Source: Flavobacteriia bacterium (lineage in GTDB: Bacteria > Bacteroidota > Bacteroidia > Flavobacteriales_D > Crocinitomicaceae). Taken from it: a stretch of 64,000 bases of DNA. The notes beneath the pieces are model-generated. The model was not told the DNA's origin. It searched no databases and saw nothing but the letters and a program-made list of their open reading frames with translations. The position numbers and the translations under genes were made by a program. The stretch spans positions 1 through 64,000 of the forward strand of contig JACOTM010000051.1 in assembly GCA_016178305.1 (NCBI GenBank), given 5' to 3'. This document shows positions 11,181 to 15,062 of this stretch, piece by piece. Numbering within the stretch: the stretch's first letter is position 1; each line of letters begins with the position of its first letter.

Positions 11181-12137
11181 ATGATTGAAATCGAAGTTTT
11201 AGGAAATAAAGATACACGTTCCGGGTTTGGAGAAGGATTGTTAGAAGTTGGTAAAAAAAATAAAGACGTTGTTGCTTTGTGTGCCGATTTAACTGGTTCT
11301 TTGAAAATGGATGCTTTTCAAAAAGAATGTTCAGATCGTTTTTTTCAAGTTGGTATCGCTGAAGCAAATATGATTGGAATGGCTGCTGGAATGACTGTTG
11401 GAGGTAAAATACCATATACGGGAACTTTTGCGAACTTTTCTACAGGTCGTGTTTATGATCAAATTCGCCAAGCTATTGCTTATTCTAAAAAGAATGTGAA
11501 AATATGTGCTTCTCATGCTGGTTTGACACTTGGAGAAGATGGTGCAACGCATCAGATTTTAGAAGATATTGGAATGATGAAAATGTTACCTAACATGACT
11601 GTCATTGTTCCGTGTGACTTTAATCAGACTAAACAAGCAACCATCGCAATTGCTGATCATAAGGGGCCTGTATATTTGAGATTTGGACGACCAGTTATGC
11701 CAATTTTTGTAAAACCAGATGCTCAATTTGTAATTGGAAAGGCTGATACAATTATAGAAGGTTCAGATGTTACGATTATTGCTTGTGGTCATTTGGTTTG
11801 GAAATCAATTGAAGCGGCAAAAGTTTTAGAAGCGCAAGGTATTTCAGTTGAATTGATTAATATGCATACAATCAAACCATTGGATAAAGAAGCTATATTG
11901 AAATCAGTTGCTAAAACAAGATGCGTTGTAACAGCAGAAGAACACATGATTAATGGTGGGCTAGGAGATTCAGTTGCACAAGTGTTGATTCAAAATGATT
12001 TAGTGCCCCAAGAGTTTGTAGGAGTAAATGATTCTTTTGGAGAAAGTGGTACTCCAATGGAATTAATGACAAAATATGGAATAGATACTCAAAATGTTGT
12101 TGATGCAGCATTGAAAGTGATTCAACGTAAAAAATAA
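11181..12137 (+). CDS. tktB: transketolase, C-terminal (pyrimidine-binding) subunit
   Basis: Second half of the split transketolase (318 residues). It has the pyrimidine-binding domain with the catalytic Glu region ([16 protein letters not shown]) and a C-terminal transketolase domain ([19 protein letters not shown] onward, ending [12 protein letters not shown]). The motif [15 protein letters not shown] is characteristic. The ATG is nine bases beyond the vWA stop codon. A hairpin terminator follows, so tktA-vWA-tktB forms one transcription unit. Expected to form a heterotetramer with TktA in the cytoplasm. Similarity to DXP synthase C-terminal regions exists, but the split two-subunit layout argues for transketolase. 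Confidence 0.95.
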
Positions 12138-13919: not shown

Positions 13920-15062
13920 TTATTTTAACAAATTTTGAATTATTTTTTGTGAAGCACCTTGATTGTTAGAAACAACGGCTTTTGATTTAAGAATCAGATG
14001 ATTTAAATTATTTTTTATTAGTTGATAAGATTCTAAAAATTGGTCACTCGTTTCTATCGAAAAACCAATTCCATTTTCTATAAAATCTTGTGCTTCAGGA
14101 AAACGTGAATGTTTTGGACCAAATATAACAGGTAATCCAAAAACCGCTGGTTCTAATATATTATGAAGATTTCCAGAAAAACCACCACCTATAAAGGCGA
14201 TTTCTCCATAGTTATATGCGCAGGCAAGATGTCCAATTGTATCTAATAATAAAACATTTGATGAAGTGGTATTCGAAAGAAAATTTGAATAACGAATAAT
14301 CGGCGAATGAAATGATTTTTCAATCTGTGCTAAATGATTTTCGTCGATGGAATGAGGAGCAATGATAATTTTACAAGTAATCTTATGCTGGTTAATCAAT
14401 GGGATAATTATTTTTTCCTCTTCCGGCCATGAACTTCCAATTATTAAAGCTTTTTCATTATTTAAAAATTTTTCTAGCGTGGGATTTGATTGCATTAAGT
14501 TCTTGTTCTCAATGACTCTGTCAAAACGGGTGTCACCAGAAATAATATAATTGCTTATCCCAATAGATTTTAAAAGACTTGCTGATTGCTGATTTTGAAC
14601 AAAAAAATAATCGAATTGTTTTAGTATTGAAGGAAAAAAGGAAATGCTTTTTTTGAAATATAATTGATTTGGTCTAAAAATGGAGCTGATCGAGTATATT
14701 TTTATATCATTTTTTTTTGCTTCAAAAATATAATTAGCCCAAAATTCATATTTTACAAAAAATATTTTTTGAGGATGGATTTTAGCAAGAAATTTTTTGG
14801 CGTTAGAAGGGGTATCAAGAGGTAAATAACATACGAAATCACAAGGATTTTTACGTTTATGGTAGTGTAAAAAGCCAGAAGGAGAAAAAAAAGTGATTAA
14901 AAAATAAATAGAGGGATCTTTTTTTTTTAATATATTCATAACAGGTAAAGATTGGTAACCTTTCCTACCTTTAATCCATGCTTTTGCTTTTGGATTAAAG
15001 AACGAAGCAAAATGAATTAAAATATTGTAACAATAGATACTAAAAGTATAAAAGTAATGCAT
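13920..15062 (-). CDS. waaA: Kdo transferase WaaA with internal deletion, probably inactive
   Basis: WaaA adds Kdo from CMP-Kdo to lipid IVA in the inner membrane. The start is the ATG at 15062 (MHYFYTFSIYCYN, N-terminal membrane anchor), one base after the preceding stop. Family motifs present include LITFFSPSGF, CYLPLDTPSNAKKFL, FFVKYEFWANYIF, GDTRFDRV, SSWPEEE, APHSIDENHL and FIGGGFSGNLHNILEPAVFG. What is missing is the segment of about 28 residues that normally lies between GRKG and the TFFSPSG strand and carries the H-x-S-x-GE motif with the catalytic Glu. Here GRKGYQ runs straight into SLPVMNILKKKDP. At 380 residues it is about 30 short of relatives. The frame is intact. Either the enzyme is inactive or the assembly lost bases near 14955. 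Confidence 0.88.
   Translation of the reverse strand: MHYFYTFSIYCYNILIHFASFFNPKAKAWIKGRKGYQSLPVMNILKKKDPSIYFLITFFSPSGFLHYHKRKNPCDFVCYLPLDTPSNAKKFLAKIHPQKIFFVKYEFWANYIFEAKKNDIKIYSISSIFRPNQLYFKKSISFFPSILKQFDYFFVQNQQSASLLKSIGISNYIISGDTRFDRVIENKNLMQSNPTLEKFLNNEKALIIGSSWPEEEKIIIPLINQHKITCKIIIAPHSIDENHLAQIEKSFHSPIIRYSNFLSNTTSSNVLLLDTIGHLACAYNYGEIAFIGGGFSGNLHNILEPAVFGLPVIFGPKHSRFPEAQDFIENGIGFSIETSDQFLESYQLIKNNLNHLILKSKAVVSNNQGASQKIIQNLLK

Follow-up and report, generated by a model that had tools for sequence, protein, structure and literature searches.

The waaA locus

The window, a stretch of 64,000 nucleotides, carries an orthologue of waaA (kdtA), which encodes the lipid IV(A) Kdo transferase of family GT30 (Table 1). 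The product is a protein of 380 amino acids that begins MHYFYTFSIY and reads GRKGYQSLPVMNILKKK at the position of interest, the join. Its closest sequence match in the PDB is WaaA from Aquifex aeolicus (2xci), with which it shares the fold, the anchor helix, and the GRKG motif. The N-terminal Kdo-transferase domain PF04413 is recognized with an E-value of 2.2e-29 (102.7 bits; cut-off 23.9), and the match spans profile positions 31–179 only; among the matches listed for genomes of the order, the domain begins at profile positions 2–18. The NCBIfam equivalog PRK05749 falls under its cut-off, as it does for the intact WaaA of a congener (L024).

The gene order around waaA is the same as in genomes G011 and G001, and the upstream neighbor is likewise retained in relatives, which supports the orthology of the locus. 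In its own genome, a draft of 124 contigs rated 99.99% complete, this waaA is the single match at E-values up to 1. Between positions 11181 and 24529, waaA and its neighbors diverge quickly: waaA is 54–57% identical to its congeners, while genes a few kilobases away are 92–99% identical to those of G011 and G001. A search of a plasmid collection returned only matches below 60% identity.

Table 1. Features of the waaA locus and of related loci in the same genome. Positions are those of the window unless a locus and contig are given.
Feature	Position	Strand	Basis or remarks
waaA orthologue, catalytic-base block gone	13920..15062	−	380 codons and stop, frame open without internal stop; PF04413, 2xci match, synteny
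N-terminal part kept: membrane helix and GRKG motif, residues 1–36	14955..15062	−	model helix 2–19; alignment
Join, codons Gln-Ser-Leu-Pro	14943..14954	−	codon alignment, 24-residue gap, repeat analysis
Remaining GT-B domains kept, VMNILKKK onward	13923..14942	−	conserved columns all retained
255-aa protein, upstream neighbor of waaA	15064..15831	−	same neighbor in 9/9 congener stretches
468-aa protein, partial Capsule_synth (PF05159)	L142:470-1876, contig C101		adjoins flippase-like gene
Operon RPE-CBS / DAHP-synthase-like / KdsC	L116:1893-4632, contig C2		in relatives: L117, L120-L135

A conserved block is missing from WaaA

We translated 99 waaA loci and dropped duplicates and fragments shorter than 340 amino acids, leaving 79 distinct sequences, that of the window included. 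Aligned with the 78 others, the window protein lacks a single internal stretch of 24 residues (72 bases) between GRKGY and SLPVMN, a gap seen in this sequence only (1/79). The stretch that is lost, which includes W-F-H-C-A-S-L-G-E, is the most conserved part of WaaA: W, H, C, A, S, L, G, and E are found in all 78 relatives and F in 75. The catalytic-base motif H-x-S-x-G-E is absent from the window protein and present in 78/78 relatives. Among congeners, waaA was found in 11 of the 11 searched, and all 11 that were aligned keep the block. The missing block aligns to WVHTASIGEF of 2xci, whose glutamate we take to be Glu31, the catalytic base of WaaA. Established catalytic bases of the A. aeolicus enzyme are mentioned, with no residue number given, in a passage of one report (PMC12856342).

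Outside the gap, all 61 columns conserved in at least 95% of the sequences are kept, every conserved site downstream of the gap among them, and the locus is syntenic with the waaA of congeners. On this alignment, the short WaaA is not a conserved short form, since the form occurs in 0/78 relatives, the protein retains every other strongly conserved site (61 in number), and synteny is intact. The sequence-only reading of this DNA had described a waaA with an intact frame and all later Kdo-transferase motifs, lacking the segment with its catalytic base, and these points hold; its figure of about 28 missing residues proved slightly high, 24 being measured. We searched the literature for a WaaA without the catalytic-base segment and found no paper.

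The join probably lies at short repeats

In intact relatives, a codon alignment places the 24 further residues either before the Gln of the join or after its Leu-Pro. The missing block is flanked by Leu-Pro on either side in 33/78 relatives, and three congeners have exact 7-base repeats there. Across the 78 relatives, the in-register match at the two edges averages 3.4 bases (median 3), compared with 2.4 bases on average and 3.0 at most in 48 shifted control registers; the repeats are short, and the effect is a modest one. The window has a Ser before Leu-Pro; 3/78 relatives have one at the left edge and none at the right edge, so the join was probably made at the left Leu-Pro or beyond it.

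The Leu-Pro codon pairs at the two edges share one phase, so a join between them is in frame without selection. The open frame therefore follows from the phase of the repeats, and it is weak evidence of function and no sign of selection. The arrangement resembles what a small in-frame deletion between short direct repeats, or a mis-join between them, would leave behind: several congeners repeat the codons on either side of the block, and one copy is left at the join. It differs in length: in the eight congeners examined, the Leu-Pro pairs are spaced by 23 codons, which predicts a loss of 69 bases, not 72, and leaves one codon over. A loss of 72 bases would require that one more codon went or that the left linker was shorter, and the repeats are those of congeners, not of the parent sequence.

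Predicted effect on the protein

The AlphaFold2 model of the window protein (48 sequences) has a mean pLDDT of 89.7, with residues 35–38 at the join below 50. In ten-residue blocks from 31 to 80, pLDDT is 52, 79, 81, 71, and 79, against 94, 92, 93, 97, and 97 in the same blocks of the intact congener L024, modeled likewise. In the congener, a strand (48–53) precedes a helix (56–72); the window model has no strand ahead of its helix 40–48 and lacks a complete N-terminal Rossmann domain with its first strand. The protein as written lacks the catalytic glutamate, the first β-strand of the GT-B fold, and half of the helix that follows; unlike 2xci, the window protein has neither a W-F-H-C-A-S-L-G-E-type block nor the first β-strand.

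The rest of the fold is retained. The window model aligns with 2xci over 314 residues (Z 27.3, rmsd 3.1) and the congener model over 340 (Z 30.3, rmsd 3.1), and the donor-binding C-terminal half is kept, matching the CMP-Kdo-binding domain of WaaA (4bfc) with Z 18.8 and rmsd 2.6 over 177 residues. With the first strand and the catalytic base gone, the short WaaA should not transfer Kdo, and going by the model such transfer is very unlikely for the protein as written.

These data also bear on the idea that the short WaaA still transfers Kdo by means of another catalytic base, which we consider highly improbable. In its favor, no other conserved site is lost, and overall the model continues to match 2xci. 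Against this, the most conserved block of the protein is lost together with a core β-strand, the model has low confidence at the join, and the form is shared with none of the 78 relatives.

Kdo and lipid A genes in the same genome and across the order

KdsC, KdsB, LpxK, and LpxL are full length in the window's own genome, which argues against a long-established Kdo-free lineage. A stop codon inside LpxL was considered and rejected; the 310-residue frame is open from its ATG, and the stop lies upstream of the start. The sequence-only reading had pointed to a second waaA and to kdsA, kdsB, and kdkA as genes to look for. No second waaA was found in the 124 contigs; kdsB is present, and a canonical kdsA was not found, as is the case across the whole family. 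For the Kdo kinase (PF06293), weak partial matches only were obtained, in 7 of 12 genomes.

A Kdo transferase of the KpsC/KpsS type (PF05159) gave one partial match (42.6 bits) in the window's own genome and none in 11 congeners. The flippase-like gene beside it suggests a polysaccharide locus, so the protein was not counted as a substitute for WaaA.

Across the order, PF04413 is matched in 187 of 199 genomes and in none of the other 12; among high-quality genomes, 4/150 have no match. G019, G127, G157, and G169, all of high completeness, are among the genomes without a match. G019 belongs to the window's family, is 100% complete, and yet has the RPE-CBS / DAHP-synthase-like / KdsC operon described below (L135). 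In view of G019 and the others, a true absence of WaaA is possible in relatives.

Origin of the short gene

With the rest of waaA intact and the segment present in relatives, sequence comparison makes a one-off deletion or a mis-joined assembly in one draft genome the most likely origin. The proposed event is one isolated loss of 72 bases from a single-copy gene that is healthy in all other respects and sits in its normal syntenic place. A join at the short repeated Leu-Pro codons (TTACC...TTACC) would give an in-frame result without selection, and the short protein as written would be inactive. The sequence would then not be that of the working gene: a short false overlap may have been merged during assembly, or a minority allele may have entered the consensus, and this is the least certain step. 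Assemblers can close gaps through short overlaps; a literature search for gap-closing errors found nothing. In our judgement, an assembly mis-join or an unrepresentative allele has a probability of about 0.55.

Several observations bear on this preference. The 61 retained sites mean that no decay of waaA is visible. In a tree, the end branch of the window protein measures 0.53, against 0.45 for the next congener, which suggests no clear acceleration. A passage of one source (PMC12887879) describes Kdo addition by WaaA as required for viability; such a requirement is not known for the window's family. In our judgement, the lack of decay, the ordinary branch, the full-length KdsC, KdsB, LpxK, and LpxL, the described need for Kdo in viability, and the lack of comparable gaps in other window genes, save two compared with remote relatives only, together make a mis-join or an unrepresentative sequence more probable than an established lineage without Kdo. 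Counting against a local assembly error, the rest of the window appears well assembled: among 21 other genes compared, only two have gaps of more than five residues, and their relatives are at 28–32% identity.

The main alternative is a real and recent loss-of-function deletion in the strain or population, which would have arisen by slippage between the Leu-Pro repeats and be tolerated through a suppressor or be on its way to loss. We find it doubtful overall. The assembled sequence does show the deletion cleanly, with an open frame and normal neighbors, the repeats at the join fit slippage, and the high-quality genomes of the order without a detectable WaaA are in keeping with it; the described viability requirement, with its limit for this family, the intact enzymes both upstream and downstream of WaaA, and the absence of decay in waaA itself speak against it. 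Were the deletion real, the organism would show that a bacterium can live in nature without its usual Kdo transferase. A version in which the deletion is also fixed, and lipid A lacks the usual WaaA-dependent ulosonic acid, would be enabled by a non-standard sugar route of the family, in which RPE-CBS would stand in for KdsD and a DAHP-synthase-like enzyme for KdsA, possibly making a sugar other than Kdo; it appears very unlikely. A draft in 124 contigs could also hide, in a contig gap or outside the bin, a second and working waaA of which the short copy is a dispensable duplicate. That is unlikely as well, given the single match in a genome rated as nearly complete and the position of the short copy in the ancestral syntenic place, where the original is expected.

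An assembly mis-join or unrepresentative allele remains our preferred reading. The sequence-only reading had listed Kdo-free LPS, another enzyme, and an assembly artefact as the possible implications; the artefact stands among the explanations favored here, and a long-established Kdo-free lineage is argued against. More probably, the case is a caution for draft genomes: a gene may be open, in frame, and well conserved there and yet lack its catalytic core.

A family without canonical KdsA and KdsD

The more useful outcome is that a whole family of Flavobacteriales is without canonical KdsA and KdsD and has a conserved candidate replacement operon. KdsA exceeded its curated cut-off in 18 of 59 related genomes, all outside the window's family (0/36 within it), and KpsF/KdsD, at E-values up to 1e-30, was likewise found in 18/59 and in 0/36. 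A second, CBS-fused member of the ribulose-phosphate epimerases (RPE-CBS) is present in 35 of the 36 genomes of the family and, outside it, only in G025 and G032 among the 59, both without KdsA and KpsF. Thus, KdsA occurs in none of 37 genomes with RPE-CBS and in 18 of 22 without it (Fisher 1e-11, a value that ignores shared ancestry).

The DAHP-synthase-like protein of the operon scores 366.9 and 323.4 bits, above the cut-offs for DAHP synthase and below those for KdsA, and carries KPRTS, which we take to set it apart from the KdsA signature. As a candidate lead, the pattern would be accounted for if RPE-CBS and the DAHP-synthase-like enzyme had displaced KdsD and KdsA, or if the family made another ulosonic acid. 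A literature search for kdsA joined with DAHP synthase in Bacteroidetes found no paper. Two more DAHP-synthase-like genes, with C-terminal parts resembling chorismate mutase, are present in the window's own genome. Of the stretches from the family, 18 were read (G000 and 17 others); KdsC accompanies the DAHP-synthase-like gene in all 18, and RPE-CBS directly precedes the pair in 17. G150 is the exception: its RPE-CBS is at another place on the same contig, and waaA is ~4 kb from the KdsC/DAHP-synthase-like pair.
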